Below the pieces are notes generated by a model that was given only the letters and a program-made list of their open reading frames with translations, searched no databases and had not been told where the DNA came from. Of a DNA stretch of 64,000 nt, positions 19,617 to 37,173 are shown in pieces (within the stretch, counting starts at the first letter, position 1; each line of letters begins with the position of its first letter). The stretch covers positions 1,930,501 to 1,994,500 of the forward strand of contig JBDWTN010000007.1 in NCBI GenBank assembly GCA_039984955.1. Reading direction: 5' to 3'. Source of the DNA: Marinobacter alexandrii. GTDB taxonomy: Bacteria > Bacteroidota > Bacteroidia > Cytophagales > Cyclobacteriaceae. The position numbers were made by a program, and so were the translations under genes.

Positions 19617-20411
19617 TTAAGTGTTTTGCAGTGTCTGGATACTTTGGTTGAGCTTTTCTTTCACAAATTCATCTTGCGTACTTTCCTTGAGCTCTTCCAT
19701 TGCTTCAACTGAAGATTTTTCCTGTATGTCTACCAATGCATCAGCTATAGCTACCAGCATCAAAGGAGAGTCTTGCATTTTTAAGGCATCTACAAGCGCG
19801 TGTCTAACCTCTGGTTGATTGGCATACCTAAGCAATGATTCGAGAGAGGCGAGGCGAACATTTAAATTTTCATCATGATTAAGTGTTGAGATCAACGCCT
19901 TAATTACTTTTTCATCGGCATTTGGAAGCTCTGCTGCAAGGTTTACCGCTCTTATTCTTTCCTGTGCCTTAGGTTGTTCAATAAGCGTTAGCATCATCAT
20001 CTCTTTCATAGATTGTATTTCATTGCTGAGCTGAGCTATATCTTGCTTTTGATTTTGCGAGGGCAGCATCCACCACCCAATGAAGAGCCCCATGACCAAT
20101 GATGCTAATCCAACTTGCCAACTTCGAGTCATCCGCTCGACAATCCAATCCATCACATTTGGTCTAGCAGTCTTTTGCTTCTCTGCATAGGCAGACATCA
20201 TTCCTTCAAATCGAGCATCCATCTTCTCGGAAGGTTCTGGTCGTTCGATTTCTTCAAACAGATCCCATGTTTGCTCAAGGTCTTTCAATTCTGAAGCAAC
20301 TTTAGGATTTGAATCCAGAAACTGTTTAAGCGCGACTTCCTCATTCTCACTGATATCGCCAGCGAGCTTATCTTGCCACAGTTCTTCCGCTTTTTTCTTT
20401 GTTAGTTTCAT
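19617..20411 (-). CDS. Anti-sigma-like membrane protein with HEAT-like C-terminal domain
   Basis: A 264-residue protein with an N-terminal cytoplasmic segment (KKAEELWQDKLAGDISENEEVALKQFLDSNPKVASEL, an anti-sigma-like helical pattern without zinc ligands), a transmembrane helix at about 96-114 and an extracytoplasmic region of HEAT-like helical repeats (RIRAVNLAAEL, VRLASLESLLRYA, VRHALVDALKM, LVAIADALVDI). It starts 1 nt after the sigma-factor stop, so it almost certainly controls that sigma factor. The HEAT-like outside domain suggests protein-protein sensing instead of a usual sensor domain. Confidence 0.75.
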   Translation of the reverse strand: MKLTKKKAEELWQDKLAGDISENEEVALKQFLDSNPKVASELKDLEQTWDLFEEIERPEPSEKMDARFEGMMSAYAEKQKTARPNVMDWIVERMTRSWQVGLASLVMGLFIGWWMLPSQNQKQDIAQLSNEIQSMKEMMMLTLIEQPKAQERIRAVNLAAELPNADEKVIKALISTLNHDENLNVRLASLESLLRYANQPEVRHALVDALKMQDSPLMLVAIADALVDIQEKSSVEAMEELKESTQDEFVKEKLNQSIQTLQNT

Positions 20412-20412
20412 A

Positions 20413-20964
20413 TCAAACGTCCAGTTTTAAGTAGGACTCTCGTAATTCTTTTAATATTCTGTGTACACGCACCTTTATAGCACTTTCTGTCACTCCTAGC
20501 ATCTCAGCTACTTTGGCATATTTCACTTTCTGAAACCTTACCAACTCTATCAACTCTCTCTTTTCATCTGTTAGATTTGAAAGCGCCTTTTTTAAATAAT
20601 TCAGTTCATCAGAGCGTTCCATATTCACCTCCGTATTTGTTGTTTCGCTTAGCTGCTCTTCATATGGATTCATATCTTCTTGAAAAGCATAGCGTTTGTT
20701 TTTTCGGTAATGATCGTGATGCACATTGCGCGCCATCTGAAACGCCCAAACCTCAAAATCTCCATTTTCTTTGTACGTATGCTTGTACTTCAAAATCCGC
20801 ACGAATACGTTTTGAACTAGGTCTTCACTAGTTGCTCCATCGCTGGTCATTCCGTAGAAAAATCCAAAGAATCGGCGACTGTATCGTTTATAAAGAAGGT
20901 TGAGTTTTTCAACATCACCCTCTTTCACTTTCAGCATCAGGTTGTGGTCTTCCAGTAGGTTCAT
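20413..20964 (-). CDS. ECF RNA polymerase sigma factor
   Basis: A 183-residue ECF sigma factor, the first gene of a five-gene operon. Region 2 is seen in LNLLYKRYSRRFFGFFYGM and SEDLVQNVFVRILKYKHTY with the -10-recognising WAFQMARNVHHDHYRK; region 4 is LKKALSNLTDEKRELIELVRF with the HTH KVAEMLGVTESAIKVRVHRILKEL. The frame is open to an ATG at 21042, but that ATG lies within an intergenic repeat element. I therefore prefer the Met at 20964 (the one at 20973 is also possible). The next gene encodes its likely anti-sigma factor. Confidence 0.88.
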   Translation of the reverse strand: MNLLEDHNLMLKVKEGDVEKLNLLYKRYSRRFFGFFYGMTSDGATSEDLVQNVFVRILKYKHTYKENGDFEVWAFQMARNVHHDHYRKNKRYAFQEDMNPYEEQLSETTNTEVNMERSDELNYLKKALSNLTDEKRELIELVRFQKVKYAKVAEMLGVTESAIKVRVHRILKELRESYLKLDV

Positions 20965-21036
20965 TTGGTGCATTCTATCGGGGAAACTCAAGTAAGTTCG
21001 GAAGGTTACATGGGGATTGGAAATTTCTTTTTTCAA

Positions 21037-21101
21037 TGTCATTCTGAGAAAAGCGAAAAATCTTCATCATTATAAGATCCTTCACTACGTTCAGGATGAC
21101 A
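21037..21101. repeat. Dispersed intergenic inverted repeat (TGTCATTCTGAG type)
   Basis: The arms TGTCATTCTGAG..AAAATCTT (21037-21064) and AAGATCC..AGGATGACA (21074-21101) are imperfect inverted copies of 28 nt. It lies between the sigma operon and the FAD/Fe-S dehydrogenase gene and belongs to the family seen at 13075, 31316 and 33064. Confidence 0.7.
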
Positions 21102-27761: not shown

Positions 27762-28187
27762 CTAAGCCATTTTGAAAAACAGCTGAACTATTCTCATGGC
27801 ATTGTCATCAAAGTCTAAGTCACCACTAATGATATTATTGAAAATGTCTTCTTCCTCTTTAAGTGGCACTGTATTGAATTGTACTCTATCAAAATCCTTG
27901 TATCCCATTTCCCAAGTTGGGAATACTCGCTCTTTGATAGACTCGAAATTTCGTTCATTCACTGTTGTGTGACGAGGGTCCTCTTTAATCAAGTTGAATA
28001 ATGCTCTGATATCATCTTTTCCTCCTTCAAGGTACTGGATAAACCGACTATTGGAATGCAATAGAACCCCTGTGATCATGTTTTGAGAATTATTCCTTTT
28101 ACAAGAGTTTAGGATATTTTCAATCTCCTTCTGGTCACAATGGGGCTTTCTGAAACTGGTATATACCAATCTATAAAGTGAGCTCAT
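27762..28187 (-). CDS. BLUF domain photosensor protein
   Basis: A 141-residue protein made almost entirely of one BLUF domain, the FAD-binding blue-light sensor fold. Key photochemical residues are present: Tyr9 (LVYTSF), Asn32/33 (KRNNSQNMITG), Gln51 (FIQYLEG) and the Trp92/Met94 pair (FPTWEMGY). No output domain is fused, so signalling must go through protein contacts, as in PixD-type BLUF proteins. It is probably co-transcribed with phzF. A terminator upstream separates it from the sigma/SRPBCC cluster. Confidence 0.93.
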   Translation of the reverse strand: MSSLYRLVYTSFRKPHCDQKEIENILNSCKRNNSQNMITGVLLHSNSRFIQYLEGGKDDIRALFNLIKEDPRHTTVNERNFESIKERVFPTWEMGYKDFDRVQFNTVPLKEEEDIFNNIISGDLDFDDNAMRIVQLFFKMA

Positions 28188-28261: not shown

Positions 28262-28282
28262 AAAAAGGCCCGCTAAGGCCTT
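28262..28282 (-). terminator. Rho-independent terminator closing the sigma/SRPBCC cluster
   Basis: In minus-strand sense, AAGGCC-TTAGCG-GGCCTT followed by TTTG, 22 nt after the last SRPBCC stop. It isolates that cluster from the downstream BLUF gene. Confidence 0.8.
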
Positions 28283-28303
28283 CTAATGGATTGTATCAAA
28301 TTT

Positions 28304-28936
28304 CTAGTTTTCTGCAGATGCAAGCATTACTCTCTTCGTTCCAGTGGTTTCAATGACGTACTTATTCTTTATAGACTTAAAGTTTTCCTTGGTTACTTTT
28401 TCACCTGTCTTAGCATGATGCTCTACAGCTATGAAGTAATCTTGAATGAGTTTCTTAAACTTCCCTTTGGCCATCGGTCCCATAAACCCTGGCTTAGTAC
28501 GATACTGCATATCAAATGAAAATTCACTTGTCCCATTTCCTAAATCTTTAATGCTGTAAACAGCTCTAGTATATTCAGGATCTACGGGAAATTTTCCTGC
28601 CTGGTAAACCGTGTTCGTAAATGACATCCCATCAGGAGAATAGTTGATCATCTTCTCTTTCAGAAATTGTGTCTGCTTTTCATTGAAGTAGCAAACTCGC
28701 TCAGCTCCTTCGCCTGCTTTTAATGTGCCATTGATATACTCCGATTCCACTATCTTTGGATGAGAGTAGGCGATTCTTCCATAATCTTCACCAACTACTT
28801 CCCACAGTTGTTCAGCAGGCAAATCAATCACTTTGCTTACCTGAAATTTCTGTACTTTCTTCTGCTTCTGCGCCATCGCGCTACCTGAGATAGCAACTAG
28901 TATTACCAGTGCTAAAACTTCCACTTTTTTTCTCAT
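28304..28936 (-). CDS. Exported SRPBCC (START-fold) ligand-binding protein
   Basis: A 210-residue protein with a signal peptide (MRKKVEVLALVILVAISGSAMAQ) and a SRPBCC domain of the polyketide-cyclase type: KVQKFQVSKVIDLPAEQLWEVVGEDYG at the start, GAERVCYF, a TSEFSFDMQYRTKPG strand and a long C-terminal helix (FKKLIQDYFIAVEHHAKTG). SRPBCC proteins hold hydrophobic ligands in a deep pocket. This is the only one of the three in the cluster with an export signal. A private copy of the cluster promoter motif lies 28-57 nt upstream of its start codon. It is the last gene before the terminator. Confidence 0.87.
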   Translation of the reverse strand: MRKKVEVLALVILVAISGSAMAQKQKKVQKFQVSKVIDLPAEQLWEVVGEDYGRIAYSHPKIVESEYINGTLKAGEGAERVCYFNEKQTQFLKEKMINYSPDGMSFTNTVYQAGKFPVDPEYTRAVYSIKDLGNGTSEFSFDMQYRTKPGFMGPMAKGKFKKLIQDYFIAVEHHAKTGEKVTKENFKSIKNKYVIETTGTKRVMLASAEN

Positions 28937-28963
28937 TTCTATACTATTTTTTGTTGATACCTA

Positions 28964-28993
28964 TTAGATTACACATAATGAAATGTGTTACAG
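28964..28993 (-). promoter_or_regulatory. ECF-type promoter, copy C (exported SRPBCC gene)
   Basis: Minus-strand CTGTAACACATTT (28981-28993), 9-nt gap, TAATCTAA (28964-28971). It matches the promoters of the sigma gene and of the first SRPBCC gene in the long box, the spacing and most of the -10 box. The start codon follows after 27 nt. Confidence 0.75.
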
Positions 28994-28996
28994 CTT

Positions 28997-29467
28997 TTAA
29001 AGAGTAAAACCGCAATAAGCAGCTATTGCTTTTCTTTCTCGTAAAGAGATTTTATCCAGGCCTCTCAAAATGGCAGGCCCTGCGACAAAGCGGAACATGA
29101 GGTAAAGTATGGGTTGAAGAATCTTATACTTAGGTACTATCTCCACATGCATATATGCGCTGCTTATTCTCTTATCAATCGATGAGACACCTAGTGTAGC
29201 CCGAGCAGATTTGATAGGCATAGTTGTTTCAAAAATTTCTACGGTATAAAATTTCCCTTCTTCCCACTCAATAATTCGTTCTTTGATATAAGATCCATCC
29301 AGCATAAAACACTCCCTTTCTGCACCTTTTCCTTCCATACAAGAGCCCTCGATAAATTTCGAATTCTTCAATAATGGGTGAAATTGGTAGATGTTAGAAA
29401 AATCAGCTAAGTATCTCCATAGTACCCCTGTTTGGGCTCTCATTTGTCGTTGAATATGGACTTTCAT
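28997..29467 (-). CDS. SRPBCC (START-fold) protein, cytoplasmic
   Basis: A 156-residue SRPBCC protein without a signal peptide. The N-terminus has the fold's first strand and helix (VHIQRQMRAQTGVLWRYLADFSNIYQFHPLL), then KGAERECFML, a central IIEWEEGKFYTVEI strand pair and a C-terminal helix (FVAGPAILRGLDKISLRER). The sequence pattern GKGAERECF matches its two cluster neighbours (GAERVCYF, GKGAKRVCQM), so the three are related. It begins 8 nt after the sigma-factor stop and must be read from the sigma promoter. Confidence 0.85.
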   Translation of the reverse strand: MKVHIQRQMRAQTGVLWRYLADFSNIYQFHPLLKNSKFIEGSCMEGKGAERECFMLDGSYIKERIIEWEEGKFYTVEIFETTMPIKSARATLGVSSIDKRISSAYMHVEIVPKYKILQPILYLMFRFVAGPAILRGLDKISLRERKAIAAYCGFTL

Positions 29468-29475
29468 CGTTATTA

Positions 29476-30360
29476 CTAATTCAGATTAAACAATCTGACT
29501 ACCTTCTCATCGCTGATCACTTCATCTAAAAAAGTCTTGCGATCAAACTCTTTTTTGAATGGCAGTCTATCGTATAACTGACGATGCTGATCTTCTACAA
29601 TGGACAACAACTCATCGGCATCTTTCGAAATATATTCTTGAAAATTGGAGTATTCTTCTCGGCTGAACAACAGGTTTTTACTGTCTATCCGTTTGCTTTC
29701 AATCATCACTGTGACTTTCTTATAACACCTACAAGGATTCGTTTTGTTGACTAACCCACATTTATTATTCATAAACTGAAAAAGATCTCTTCGAGCTCTG
29801 GACAGTCGTACTCGAAAGTTTTGTTTGCTGATTCCCAGAATTTCGGATCCTACTGTATGATCTGCATTGAATAGCTCACCAAGAATATAAACCATGCGTT
29901 GATCTCTGGTAAGGCATAGCAACATGCCAGACATACATGCCAGATTCATCTCTCTGATTTCAATTACTCGTTCTTCTTGCTCCAATTCTGTCAGTTCAAT
30001 GTTATCAAAAGTATCAAGCACATTTCCGAACGTTTGGAAATCAGTAATCACTTCTTCACGACCTATCTTTCGCATTTTCAAAAAGTGATTGGCCACAATT
30101 CGATACAGCCAGGTTCGAAATTGCGATTCTCCTTTGAACTGGGATAGCTTAGTGGTAACCTTGATGAGGACTTCCTGAGTAATGTCTTGCGCATCATTGG
30201 GATTTTGCACCATCTTCCAGGCAATATTGAAAATAAAAGGCTGATGCTTTTTTAGTAGCGCTTCTAGCGCTTCCTTATTCCCTGTCAAAGCTTTCTGGAT
30301 GAGACTTTTATCGTCTTCGTCTGTTTGATATTCCTGTTGAAATGGATTCATACTATTCAT
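29476..30360 (-). CDS. ECF sigma factor with Cys-rich C-terminal extension
   Basis: A 294-residue sigma factor. Region 2 is seen in KKHQPFIFNIAWKMVQNPNDAQDITQEVLIKV and the WLYRIVANHFLKMRK -10 helix; region 4 in LACMSGMLLCLTRDQRMVYILGELF with the HTH LGISKQNFRVRLSRARRDLF. After region 4 a C-terminal extension of ~95 residues begins with KCGLVNKTNPCRCYKK, a conserved Cys patch, and continues as helices. No anti-sigma gene is adjacent, so the extension may regulate activity itself, as in other extended ECF groups. A copy of the shared promoter motif lies only 10-39 nt before the ATG, which suggests autoregulation and an almost leaderless message. Confidence 0.9.
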   Translation of the reverse strand: MNSMNPFQQEYQTDEDDKSLIQKALTGNKEALEALLKKHQPFIFNIAWKMVQNPNDAQDITQEVLIKVTTKLSQFKGESQFRTWLYRIVANHFLKMRKIGREEVITDFQTFGNVLDTFDNIELTELEQEERVIEIREMNLACMSGMLLCLTRDQRMVYILGELFNADHTVGSEILGISKQNFRVRLSRARRDLFQFMNNKCGLVNKTNPCRCYKKVTVMIESKRIDSKNLLFSREEYSNFQEYISKDADELLSIVEDQHRQLYDRLPFKKEFDRKTFLDEVISDEKVVRLFNLN

Positions 30361-30369
30361 TATATACGC

Positions 30370-30399
30370 TTTGATCTTGAAAAAGTAAATGTGTTACAA
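30370..30399 (-). promoter_or_regulatory. ECF-type promoter, copy B (sigma gene itself)
   Basis: Minus-strand TTGTAACACATTT (30387-30399), 9-nt gap, AGATCAAA (30370-30377). The -10 box ends 9 nt before the sigma start codon at 30360, leaving at most a few nucleotides of leader. Confidence 0.75.
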
Positions 30400-30443
30400 G
30401 AGTCCGCCAATATTCTTTGAATTTCGACAGACTCTGTGTGTGT

Positions 30444-30866
30444 TTATATGGAAAGCTCTGCCAGTTTACTGGAAGAAGTTGAATAAATTTCTTCGATTCC
30501 GGGTTTCACTTGTTCGAAGGTCTCCTCATTTTCCACCTCAAATTCTACATTCCATTCTAATTTGGTCTCTCCATTCTTTCCTGAGAACTTCATTGTTCCA
30601 ATTACATCAGAAATAGGCATGAAGGACTGTTTATCGATCCGATATTGAAAAAGCTTTTGCTCATCATCTGATTCCAAAATGGTTTCAAAAAGCTCATTAC
30701 CATCATGCATTTGGCAGACACGCTTCGCTCCTTTTCCTTCCCCATTGATAGTGCTTCCTGAAAGTATAGGTAGCCATCTTTCCCATTCGGCCCCAGTTCT
30801 TACATTGTTCCATACTTGATCCAAGTTCGCATTCAAAGTATGAGTGGTTTCAATTCGTTTTTTCAT
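30444..30866 (-). CDS. SRPBCC (START-fold) protein, first of cluster
   Basis: A 140-residue SRPBCC protein: RIETTHTLNANLDQVWNNVRTGAEWERWLPIL at the start, then GEGKGAKRVCQMHDGNEL, a strand pair around LFQYRID, TKLEWNVEFEVE and a short C-terminal helix. It lacks a signal peptide. It is first in the sigma/SRPBCC cluster and has its own promoter copy at 30893-30922, while the sigma gene 83 nt downstream has another. The ligand is unknown. Confidence 0.87.
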   Translation of the reverse strand: MKKRIETTHTLNANLDQVWNNVRTGAEWERWLPILSGSTINGEGKGAKRVCQMHDGNELFETILESDDEQKLFQYRIDKQSFMPISDVIGTMKFSGKNGETKLEWNVEFEVENEETFEQVKPGIEEIYSTSSSKLAELSI

Positions 30867-30892: not shown

Positions 30893-30922
30893 TTTGATCT
30901 GGATTCGAAAAATGTGTTACAG
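30893..30922 (-). promoter_or_regulatory. ECF-type promoter, copy A (first SRPBCC gene)
   Basis: Minus-strand CTGTAACACATTT (30910-30922), 9-nt gap, AGATCAAA (30893-30900). The start codon at 30866 follows after 26 nt. The two boxes are identical to copy B apart from the first base. Confidence 0.75.
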
Positions 30923-31406: not shown

Positions 31407-31478
31407 CCGACTATCCTCTTCGTGACAATTCAATCATTCCATAAATCTTTGTCATTCTATTGACGTGTACTTATGATT

Positions 31479-31910
31479 ATGAAAACACTCACATCCATAT
31501 TCTTTCTTCTTTTAACATTTGTAGTATCCGCTCAAAAGAGTCCAATCTACACCACGAAGGATGGAGCTATCAAAGGATATGATCCAGTTGCATATTTCAA
31601 TCAGGGAGAACCGGTGAAAGGTAGTGAGGCATTTACTTACAAATGGAAAGAAGCCGATTGGTATTTTAGCTCGAAGGAAAACCTAGATGCTTTTAAAGCT
31701 AATCCTGAAAAACACGCACCTCAATTTGGAGGCTATTGTGCGTATGGTGTTTCAAAAGGAGCCCTGTACAAGATTGAGCCCGAAGCATGGAAGATCGTAG
31801 AAGGAAAGCTGTATCTGAATTTCAGCAAAGGCATTCAGAAAAAGTGGGAGGCTGATCAAGCCACATTTATCAAAGAAGCTAAAGTCAATTGGCCAAAAGT
31901 GATTGAATGA
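31479..31910 (+). CDS. YHS domain protein, secreted
   Basis: A 143-residue protein with a signal peptide (MKTLTSIFFLLLTFVVSAQ) and a YHS domain, a small metal- or haem-associated module named for its conserved residues: GYDPVAYFNQGEPVKGSEAFTYKW, then WYFSSKENLDAFKANPEKHAPQFGGYCAYGV. The last part (YKIEPEAWKIVEGKLYLNFSKG) is the usual conserved extension. A Met two codons upstream at 31473 is an alternative start. It is a single gene. Confidence 0.88.
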   Translation: MKTLTSIFFLLLTFVVSAQKSPIYTTKDGAIKGYDPVAYFNQGEPVKGSEAFTYKWKEADWYFSSKENLDAFKANPEKHAPQFGGYCAYGVSKGALYKIEPEAWKIVEGKLYLNFSKGIQKKWEADQATFIKEAKVNWPKVIE

Positions 31911-34352: not shown

Positions 34353-34919
34353 ATGAAAACATCGGATCAAATAATAGAGGAATGGCTGGTAATTAATTGC
34401 CAGGCTGGCGATCGAAAAGCATTTGAATTGTTGGTGAAACGGTGGAATCCCAAAATGTTTGGTCGTGTTTACTACACAACAAAAGATGCCGTTGCATCAA
34501 AAGACATTGTGCAGGAAGCCTGGATTACCATTATCAAAAAAATAAAGACACTCAGAGATCCAAGAGCTTTTCAAGGATGGTCTTTAAGAATTGCCACTAC
34601 TTTGGCTATAGATTGGATTCGATCCAATCAGGTCAACAGGAAAAGAGAAGCAATTCGAGAGCTTGTTCAAGCTGAATTTGCTGAAAAAAGCCTCGGTCCA
34701 AAAGAAGAAACACTCATCTCACTGAAGAAAGCCATTGATGAATTGCCTCCAGAACAGCGCACAGTAATTCAAATGTTCTATCAGGAAAATTTATCCATCC
34801 TTACCATAAGTGGAATACTGGACTTGCCAACAGGAACGATAAAATCGAGACTCTTTCGAGGGAGAGAATACTTAAAAAAAATGTTAGAAAATAAACTATA
34901 TCAAGATGAAAAAGAATGA
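34353..34919 (+). CDS. ECF RNA polymerase sigma factor
   Basis: A 188-residue ECF sigma factor with region 2 (AFELLVKRWNPKMFGRVYYTTKDAVASKDIVQEAWITI), the -10 helix FQGWSLRIATTLAIDWIRSN, and region 4 (LKKAIDELPPEQRTVIQMFYQENLSILTISGILDLPTGTIKSRLFRGREYL). It overlaps the following DUF6768-like gene by 14 nt, so both are made together. That small membrane protein is probably its anti-sigma partner or regulator. No other target genes are visible next to it. Confidence 0.92.
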   Translation: MKTSDQIIEEWLVINCQAGDRKAFELLVKRWNPKMFGRVYYTTKDAVASKDIVQEAWITIIKKIKTLRDPRAFQGWSLRIATTLAIDWIRSNQVNRKREAIRELVQAEFAEKSLGPKEETLISLKKAIDELPPEQRTVIQMFYQENLSILTISGILDLPTGTIKSRLFRGREYLKKMLENKLYQDEKE

Positions 34920-35292
34920 TGAAATAGATCAGATGATCAAAGAAGCTTTGTCTGATGACGAAAGGGAATTATTTAATAATTACGAAGAGCAAGGCATGTT
35001 TGAAATGATTGGTGGACTGTTTCAAGGAAAAATGAAGTGGCTTAATGGATTAACAGCATTCATACAACTGATTATATTAGGGTTTGCTGTGTATTTTGGA
35101 TATCGATTTTTTGGAACAGATCAGGTAACTGAAATGATTCGATTTGGCGGACTCTTTTTCTTATTCATGATTATGATGACCACCTTAAAAATCTTCCATA
35201 TGATGGAGATGAATAAGAATGCCACTATTAGAGAAATCAAACGAATGGAACTTCAAATATCTGTTCTCACGAATAGCTTGAAAAAGAATTAG
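34906..35292 (+). CDS. DUF6768-like membrane protein, probable sigma partner
   Basis: A 128-residue protein with an acidic cytoplasmic N-terminus (IDQMIKEALSDDERELFNNYEEQG), two transmembrane helices (about 49-67 and 80-100) and a C-terminal helix (IREIKRMELQISVLT) that could form a coiled coil. This layout is that of small Bacteroidota proteins (DUF6768-like) regularly found directly after ECF sigma genes. It overlaps the sigma gene by 14 nt. The acidic N-terminus is a good candidate for sigma binding. Confidence 0.7.
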   Translation: MKKNDEIDQMIKEALSDDERELFNNYEEQGMFEMIGGLFQGKMKWLNGLTAFIQLIILGFAVYFGYRFFGTDQVTEMIRFGGLFFLFMIMMTTLKIFHMMEMNKNATIREIKRMELQISVLTNSLKKN

Positions 35293-36702: not shown

Positions 36703-37173
36703 ATGCTTTTTTATACCATTTATACCAGCACTCCTCGAGATCAAGTGACGCTTGAAACGCTAAAGGAGATTAAGATAGTCTCTCAAAAAAACAATCCGGA
36801 GAAAGACATTACAGGTATTCTATTGGGTATGGAAAACAAATACCTACAATACCTCGAAGGTCCAGAGGACAATGTAAATGAGCTTTTCAGCAAGATATGG
36901 AAAGATTCTCGTCATCAGCATGTTACCCAATGGATTAAAGGATATTCTGAAGAACGTGTGTTTGGAGATTGGTCCATGGGCTCATGGATGCTAACGAATG
37001 ATGAACTTAAAAACATGCCCTCCCTTTCTGATCTCAAAAAATTTCTGGAAGACCCACTAAAGAATGAATTGAAATCCACAAAATTCATTGCCATGATGAA
37101 TAGTCTTTTGAAAACATGGATTGCACATGAGCCAGAAAGGTTGAAGAAAATGAGGGGCGGATTGTCCAATTAG
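36703..37173 (+). CDS. BLUF domain photosensor protein (second copy)
   Basis: A 156-residue BLUF protein. FAD-site residues are Tyr7 (FYTIYTST), Asn31 (KNNPEKDITGILL), Gln49 (YLQYLEG) and the Trp90/Met92 pair (GDWSMGSW). The C-terminal ~50 residues form extra helices (LKKFLEDPLKNELK onward) and no output domain. It is distinct in sequence from the other BLUF protein at 27762, so this is not a recent duplication. It lies 32 nt upstream of a DUF6265-like gene. Confidence 0.93.
   Translation: MLFYTIYTSTPRDQVTLETLKEIKIVSQKNNPEKDITGILLGMENKYLQYLEGPEDNVNELFSKIWKDSRHQHVTQWIKGYSEERVFGDWSMGSWMLTNDELKNMPSLSDLKKFLEDPLKNELKSTKFIAMMNSLLKTWIAHEPERLKKMRGGLSN

Follow-up and report, generated by a model that had tools for sequence, protein, structure and literature searches.

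A stretch of 64,000 nucleotides from Marinobacter alexandrii (contig JBDWTN010000007.1, positions 1,930,501 to 1,994,500; hereafter the window) contains four neighbouring genes that encode an extracytoplasmic function (ECF) sigma factor and three small SRPBCC proteins, which we call SRPBCC-A, SRPBCC-B and SRPBCC-C. We consider it probable that these genes constitute a self-contained, autoregulated sigma-factor circuit with a private promoter and exchangeable outputs, in which control would be exerted by a cysteine-bearing C-terminal extension of the sigma factor. The sequence comparisons described here support autoregulation of the sigma factor, a private promoter that coevolves with it, a small regulon and outputs that are exchanged among relatives. 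An earlier note on this DNA, made from the letters alone, had described the unit, which proved to be real, and had overlooked three identical promoter elements within it.

These elements, of the form TGTAACACATTT-N11-ATC, lie upstream of SRPBCC-A, the sigma gene and SRPBCC-C. The 12-mer TGTAACACATTT occurs without mismatches exactly three times in the 64 kb, in each case directly 5' of one of these genes, and is followed at a constant distance by a (G/A)ATC(A/T)AA block. When we searched the whole window with a more general motif, TGT(A/C)ACA-N15-17-(A/G)TC-N-AA (the strict motif), the only matches were again the three sites before A, sigma and C. As judged from the sequence, this layout is that of an autoregulated ECF promoter. 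The absence of an element of its own and a gap of only 8 nt support the view that SRPBCC-B rides on the sigma transcript.

To place the unit in a family, we collected homologues of the sigma factor, which occupy 50 places in 29 of 195 related genomes (E <= 1e-20). A profile search of the phylum found it in 21 of 395 genomes at E <= 1e-30; in 11 of these, among them G000, the genome of the window, at least about 270 positions are matched, and the other 10 matches stop near position 191-218 and are outside the later sample. For 48 of these places, and likewise for the long matches from the phylum search, we read the surrounding DNA, up to 18 kb in each case. In the 60 stretches, 62 open reading frames (ORFs) match the sigma profile at E <= 1e-25, of which 57 pass a pattern for a patch of cysteines in the C-terminal extension. 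Setting aside one fragment (L110) left 56 sigma genes for the counts given below.

The strict motif is matched 56 times in the 60 stretches (1.92 Mb, both strands), compared with 2-3 matches in each of five mononucleotide shuffles. It lies upstream of the sigma gene, or of a co-directional gene within four ORFs of it, for 38 of the 56 sigma genes, versus 2 of 526 other genes in a control set that excludes loci L116 and L117. If up to one mismatch is allowed in a narrower stretch, 46 of the 56 sigma genes qualify. Among 53 unique sites, 38 have a spacer of 16 nt. Position 8 is C in 85% of sites and the fourth position of the -10 element is T in 68%; because neither is fixed by the search pattern, these preferences provide independent support for the motif. 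The motif also precedes the Runella and Enterococcus raffinosus loci, and on a Leptospira plasmid it precedes the gene upstream of the sigma gene.

We then asked which of 274 positions of the sigma factor varies with the fourth base of the -35 element in 40 loci, i.e., the 38 above plus L116 and L117. Residue 184, which lies in the recognition helix, covaries most closely: it is V or I in all 20 loci with TGTAACA and Q or K in all 20 loci with TGTCACA. When the tree is computed with the helix columns excluded, the base must change four times, three of these changes being forced by well-supported branches, so this code is not a single inherited difference. Nine further loci are one mismatch away from the strict motif; all seven of these that have V, I, Q or K at residue 184 carry the predicted base, and the remaining two, with A184 (L069) and T184 (L085), fall outside the rule. 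Four sigma factors with M184 and K188 are associated with CTTTACA and the same -10 element. The CTTTACA element is matched eight times in the 60 stretches, always in these four loci, and 0-2 times in ten shuffles; in L071 its sole match lies inside the called start of the second gene upstream. Locus L077 (M184, R188) has a single TGTTGCA site. The Enterococcus sigma factor has C188 yet is preceded by TGTCACA, which makes a role of residue 188 in specificity less firm. One genome, G005, carries two units with SRPBCC genes, one of the TGTAACA type (L065) and one of the CTTTACA type (L070). Given the correspondence between residue 184 and base 4, together with the placement of the motif, it is very likely that the sigma factor itself reads these promoters.

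A less direct line of argument concerns how the sigma factor would be controlled. Its only cysteines are Cys142, Cys149, Cys201, Cys210 and Cys212, the last three forming the patch. Of the 58 aligned sigma factors, 56 had been selected by a pattern that demands Cys201, Cys210 and Cys212, so only Cys142 and Cys149 are unbiased there. The Runella and Enterococcus proteins, which come from outside the pattern selection, keep all five cysteines, with a loop that is two residues shorter in Enterococcus. No PDB chain covering the extension was found, and the sigma profile matches end at about position 195. By analogy with ECF41, CorE and OrbS, as presented in the excerpts of the papers drawn on here (PMC3426412, PMC8999054, PMC9023288), we infer that the extension and its cysteines act as a brake or sensor, and the cysteines may sense metal or thiol chemistry. 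The suggestion in the earlier note that the patch binds metal or responds to redox gains from the conservation of five cysteines over three phyla, and is still to be taken as a proposal.

In the mechanism that we favour, the recognition helix would read one short private promoter type, found before sigma, A and C. There would be no anti-sigma factor; instead, the sigma factor's own extension would restrain or activate it. Cys142 and Cys149 at the start of region 4, together with Cys201, Cys210 and Cys212 just behind that region, would make up a sensor, based on a metal or on thiols, that clamps region 4. A trigger would then set off positive feedback, with more sigma factor and more of the lipid-pocket SRPBCC proteins, of which one is predicted to be exported; the SRPBCC proteins could bind a hydrophobic compound, perhaps an electrophile or an aromatic, or render it harmless. 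It is conceivable instead that the five cysteines form a structural zinc site or knuckle and nothing more, and that the sigma factor is controlled by its abundance, e.g., by another regulator acting at an upstream promoter. Invariance alone does not show sensing, and an autoregulatory promoter alone could make a bistable switch based on abundance. However, ECF sigma factors with C-terminal cysteine clusters that have been tested do respond to metals, namely OrbS (PMC9023288) and CorE (PMC8999054) in the excerpts of these papers, and a positive loop that lacks an anti-sigma factor requires some brake. We therefore regard purely structural cysteines as unlikely, although they are the most serious competitor of a sensing extension.

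The genes that accompany the sigma factor are exchanged, while its cysteines persist. In the closest relatives, SRPBCC-C lies behind the sigma gene (L066, L067, L068 and L004) or behind sigma and B (L065). At the 56 sigma loci overall, neighbour labels that were made by hand, several of them by eye, give SRPBCC 21 times, ABM/ydhR 13 times, SnoaL/NTF2 8 times, anthrone oxygenase 3 times and other types 11 times. The sigma-SRPBCC unit claimed in the earlier note is thus kept in the closest relatives and partly contradicted by the wider family, where the neighbours are often others. A count by Pfam family gives PF10604 25 times, SnoaL_2 8, ABM 5, ydhR 5 and anthrone oxygenase 3 times among 115 proteins encoded by the nearest co-directional genes (at most two per side, with identical proteins counted once and near relatives kept). 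Among 113 proteins from more distant genes of the same stretches, PF10604 occurs twice, and SnoaL_2, ABM, ydhR and anthrone oxygenase are absent from the 25 families listed. Single loci add cupin, DUF1761 and DUF2461 neighbours; DUF2461 adjoins the sigma gene both in L095, from a Bacteroidota genome, and in L117, from Enterococcus. When partner type is mapped onto a tree of the 56 sigma factors, 16 changes are needed, where the minimum is 4 and the mean of shuffles is 30.6. Because this value falls between the two, partner and sigma factor appear to be inherited together for a time and then swapped. The fact that relatives keep the sigma factor and its cysteines while exchanging the neighbours suggests a built-in sensor rather than a partner protein that senses.

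The earlier note had also raised the possibility that a ligand-bound SRPBCC protein regulates the sigma factor, in effect as a soluble anti- or co-sigma factor. In favour of this idea, no anti-sigma gene was seen, SRPBCC-B closely follows the sigma gene, and SRPBCC-C stays behind it in the closest relatives. Moreover, the motif RxC, shared by the three SRPBCC proteins, was present in 12 of 13 sigma-linked versus 2 of 23 other PF10604 proteins, in a comparison that covered 38 of 81 matches, two of them without an ORF; linkage was a manual call, and the linked set consists of related proteins. However, partners of unrelated folds substitute for SRPBCC at many loci where the sigma factor and its cysteines are conserved, and export, as predicted for SRPBCC-C, would remove it from the sigma factor. 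Also, in the excerpts of PMC3426412, no signalling function was seen for the neighbours of ECF41 genes. Homologues of SRPBCC-C do, furthermore, occur without the sigma factor. They were found (E <= 1e-15) in 15 of 195 relatives, 10 of which also have the sigma factor, and in 8 of those 10 genomes the two genes share one cluster, within three genes. The sigma factor was not found in the other five (G002, G019, G150, G177 and G190; the G002 gene is at a contig edge). An AraC-type regulator with an ExsA_N-like domain adjoins the SRPBCC gene in L237, L238, L241 and L247, i.e., in four of the nine loci examined for an SRPBCC of the A or C type that was not seen beside sigma; two of these four genomes, G080 (L241) and G011 (L247), have the sigma factor elsewhere. 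The RxC-type SRPBCC genes next to the AraC-type regulator show a short MKC motif in three of the four cases, and MKT in L238. A structure model of SRPBCC-C was of moderate quality (pLDDT 61.3). The swapping of partners of unrelated folds while the sigma factor stays the same disfavours SRPBCC proteins as regulators, a role that we consider improbable, and makes it likely that they are outputs of the switch.

It is important to set out the points that weigh against an autoregulated circuit with a private promoter and a sensing extension, or against parts of this reading. First, the regulon is not purely local. The genome of the window contains 10 TGTAACA-type sites, compared with 1 for the reversed pattern; three of the 10 are at this locus, two are directly 5' of genes elsewhere, which encode an exported hydrolase (25 nt) and an ABC-ATPase-like protein (16 nt), three fall within ORFs, and for the other two no ORF begins within 250 nt. 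The longer TGTAACAC pattern was found 50 times in 20 sigma-positive genomes, where its reversed form was found 26 times; in 20 genomes without sigma the corresponding counts were 12 and 8. Second, the strict motif is missing from the tested stretch at 18 of the 56 sigma genes. CTTTACA accounts for four of them and the one-mismatch loci for nine; the promoters of L077, L095, L098, L108 and L146 remain weak or unexplained. Third, apart from the manual origin of the neighbour labels, SDR and DinB genes are barely commoner near the sigma gene than farther away (3 versus 2 each). Fourth, the five cysteines could be a structural metal site, and a model of the sigma factor from five sequences, with a mean pLDDT of 43.8, is too poor to judge their geometry. 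Finally, a hydrophobic aromatic or quinone-like compound as the signal is a guess that derives from the partner families (START, ABM, SnoaL and anthrone oxygenase).

With these points considered, the regulon seems to be small and focused on the locus, with a few possible trans targets, two of them candidates in the window's own genome. The site before the hydrolase gene has the form TGTAACA-N16-ATCAAA (L113:7920-9294; G000:C7:325919), and a different ECF sigma gene directly follows the hydrolase gene, which makes the pair a candidate trans target or cascade. A looser site, with one mismatch, at C5:758563 is inside an ORF. In L164 (G050:C5:4846-4874), the motif precedes a gene, DUF2461-like by eye, that is distant from the sigma gene and is likely a trans target. 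A perfect motif was also found within an ORF of 417-418 amino acids, about 270-300 nt before a methyltransferase-like gene, in three of the genomes that were read (L112:8022-8050, at G000:C7:2923021; L158; and L174). We take this methyltransferase-like gene to be egtB/egtD-like. The motif inside the ORF may reflect coding conservation or an internal promoter.

A more far-reaching hypothesis is that the family is a plug-in stress module found across phyla, in which a sigma factor with five thiols would itself detect either a metal or a quinone-like electrophile, the gene for small-molecule handling behind its promoter is exchanged in evolution, and a code in residues 184 and 188, which would set the initial bases of the -35 element, insulates copies from each other. 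We put this forward tentatively, as a possibility that goes well beyond what we consider probable. If true, several copies per genome would be kept insulated by the code. ECF sigma factors that lack an anti-sigma factor are a poorly understood branch of bacterial signalling, and this family offers a clean promoter, a base-residue code that can be tested with reporters, five candidate sensor residues and defined outputs. The specificity of the sigma factor and its promoters change together in nature, e.g., in G005 with both versions of the circuit, which is useful for the design of orthogonal switches.

Members of the family were found in Bacteroidota, Leptospira and Enterococcus. Among the five ORFs that failed the cysteine-patch pattern, those in L105, L116 and L117 keep the cysteines in a variant wording, one (L109) is truncated, and the fifth is the remaining part of the L110 (G170) sigma gene, which is broken into two frames. 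In L109, from G001, the sigma factor is cut to 80 residues and no SRPBCC-C gene lies behind it; no SRPBCC-C homologue was found in the G001 genome, which is 73% complete. A plasmid of Leptospira interrogans (L115) carries a member with 44% identity, an IS110 transposase gene downstream and, upstream, an ABM-like gene with a weak match (E 0.038). This plasmid-borne member is unmentioned in the excerpts of two Leptospira papers (PMC4758666, PMC12655853). Plasmid searches started from different family members returned nearly the same records, among them one Streptomyces plasmid record that aligns over 62% of the query.

The four ORFs had been placed correctly by the earlier note, all on the minus strand (Table 1), and most of its descriptions held. 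All three SRPBCC proteins exceed the Pfam cut-off of PF10604 (Polyketide_cyc2), which is 27.4 bits, with 62.6 for A, 31.8 for B and 36.6 for C, and their proposed relationship through a G(K)GA(E/K)RxC motif is confirmed by GKGAKRVC in A, GKGAEREC in B and GEGAERVC in C. In the whole genome there are 8 matches to PF10604, 6 of them over the cut-off, and 3 of those 6 fall within the unit's 2.6 kb, a concentration beyond chance. By eye, SRPBCC-C is indeed the only one of the three that opens with a signal-peptide-like stretch, MRKKVEVLALVILVAISGSAMA-Q. The sigma factor matches PF04542 and PF08281 over their cut-offs, with no region-3 match listed by Pfam, as expected of the ECF type, and its cysteine patch (residues 201-212 of 294) opens a C-terminal part of 94 residues counted from the first cysteine, close to the roughly 95 given earlier. 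The reported lack of an anti-sigma gene agrees with the absence of such a domain among ten ORFs checked with Pfam, a subset of the flanking ORFs. A terminator closing the unit had also been claimed, and a hairpin with a T tail does lie 3' of SRPBCC-C (28284-28263). However, terminator-like sites in the surrounding stretch number 4, where 2.5 are expected (standard deviation 1.7); because this excess is not clear, the call rests on placement.

Table 1. Features of the sigma-SRPBCC unit, in window coordinates
Feature	Position	Strand	Remarks
Promoter element of SRPBCC-A	30893..30921	-	TGTAACAC...GATCAAA; strict motif
SRPBCC-A	30444..30866	-	140 aa; no signal peptide seen; PF10604 6.6e-17; RxC motif present
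Promoter element of sigma gene (autoregulation)	30370..30398	-	strict motif
ECF sigma factor	29476..30360	-	294 aa; PF04542 + PF08281; cysteine-bearing C-terminal extension
Codon of Cys142	29935..29937	-	start of sigma region 4; C in 57/58 homologues
Codon of Cys149	29914..29916	-	start of sigma region 4; C in 58/58 homologues
Codon of Val184	29809..29811	-	recognition helix; covaries with -35 base 4 (V/I with A 20/20, Q/K with C 20/20)
Cys patch (Cys201, Cys210, Cys212)	29725..29760	-	CGLVNKTNPCRC; 58/58 homologues, mostly pattern-selected (see text)
SRPBCC-B	28997..29467	-	156 aa; 8 nt 3' of sigma; PF10604 2e-7; own promoter element absent
Promoter element of SRPBCC-C	28964..28992	-	TGTAACAC...AATCTAA; strict motif
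SRPBCC-C	28304..28936	-	210 aa; signal-peptide-like start; PF10604 6.6e-9; partner retained in closest relatives
Probable intrinsic terminator at unit end	28263..28284	-	hairpin AGAAGGCC...GGCCTTTT

Other genes of the window deserve mention. Further ECF-type sigma genes are found at 34353-35292 and 19617-21042, each with a small gene beside it (34906-35292 and 19617-20411) that could encode its anti-sigma factor. A gene with a YHS_seleno-type domain (31473-31910) is beside or near the sigma gene in the closest relatives (L065, L066 and L067), and the promoter motif is absent before it in the window. Genes for BLUF blue-light sensors are located near the unit, at 27762-28187 and 36703-37173, and in the sister genome two BLUF genes lie in tandem behind SRPBCC-C (L065:10494-11439). 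We considered control by light through these neighbours and dropped the idea, since the strict motif precedes neither BLUF gene in the window; it is also disfavoured by the observation that, among the stretches compared, the window and its sister (L003/L065) are the only ones in which a BLUF homologue adjoins the unit.

Among known systems, the closest in logic is ECF41, and the least probable of the alternatives, which we consider very doubtful, is that the sigma factor is simply a divergent member of that group in Bacteroidota: the TGTCACA core in part of the family, the 16-nt spacer, the missing anti-sigma factor, the small-enzyme-like neighbours and the C-terminal extension are in its favour, but the SnoaL domain was not matched in the extension, the -10 element is (A/G)TCTAA and not CGTC, the solved ECF41 member SigJ matches in region 4 only (E 6e-4), and the general superfamily model TIGR02937 is the sole one over its cut-off among the best 25 of 87 NCBIfam models. 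The extension of ECF41 proteins contains the short conserved motifs NPDKL and DGGGR. The ECF41 factors Ecf41Bli, Ecf41Rsp and SigJ resemble the window sigma factor in having no anti-sigma gene, a fused C-terminal extension, a local regulon, interchangeable enzyme-like neighbours, and a nearly identical -35 element with a 16-nt spacer before both sigma and neighbour; according to the excerpts of PMC3426412, tests showed the extension to be regulatory and the neighbours to be targets for which no signalling role was seen, and the authors could not identify a phenotype. The ECF41 promoter is TGTCACA-N16-CGTC; the -35 element is TGTAACA in the window and TGTCACA in some relatives, with a spacer that is mostly 16 nt. 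Unlike in ECF41, the cysteines of the window sigma factor are shared between region 4 and the extension, and the enriched neighbours are SRPBCC, SnoaL, ABM and ydhR genes instead of mainly COE genes. No COE gene was seen in the window unit, and the relatives have a few SDR genes and one CMD-like match below its cut-off.

The cysteines invite comparison with two other groups. As in ECF238 (CorE and CorE2), the C-terminal extension bears cysteines, and in CorE it switches the sigma factor; by contrast, the CXC of CorE between regions 2 and 4 is absent from the window sigma factor (PMC8999054, in excerpt). The C-terminal cysteines of the window protein form a three-cysteine patch, a possible counterpart of the C-terminal cysteine-rich domain of CorE. 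OrbS (ECF243) of Burkholderia cenocepacia has a cysteine cluster at and behind region 4.2 that serves as an on-board, Fe(II)-responsive anti-sigma factor, but its four cysteines are in a short tail, whereas the five here are spread across region 4 and the 94-residue extension; its regulon is a Fur-controlled siderophore system, and the excerpts of PMC9023288 mention no SRPBCC unit. The three small proteins of the window, which all belong to Polyketide_cyc2/SRPBCC (PF10604), form an RxC-motif subset of that family tied to the sigma factor.

A last comparison is with ECF42, whose neighbours are DGPF proteins. ECF42 factors also have a long C-terminal extension, for which a control of activity was proposed, and unlike the window sigma factor they end in a TPR domain (PMC9023288, in excerpt). 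The same source quotes a classification of 157 ECF groups, 19 of them with C-terminal extensions. The present family may already carry a number among the 157, and in our literature search we recognised no paper as describing it. Based on its sequence features, its logic is that of ECF41, but with a different, cysteine-bearing extension that is without the SnoaL domain by which ECF41 is defined.

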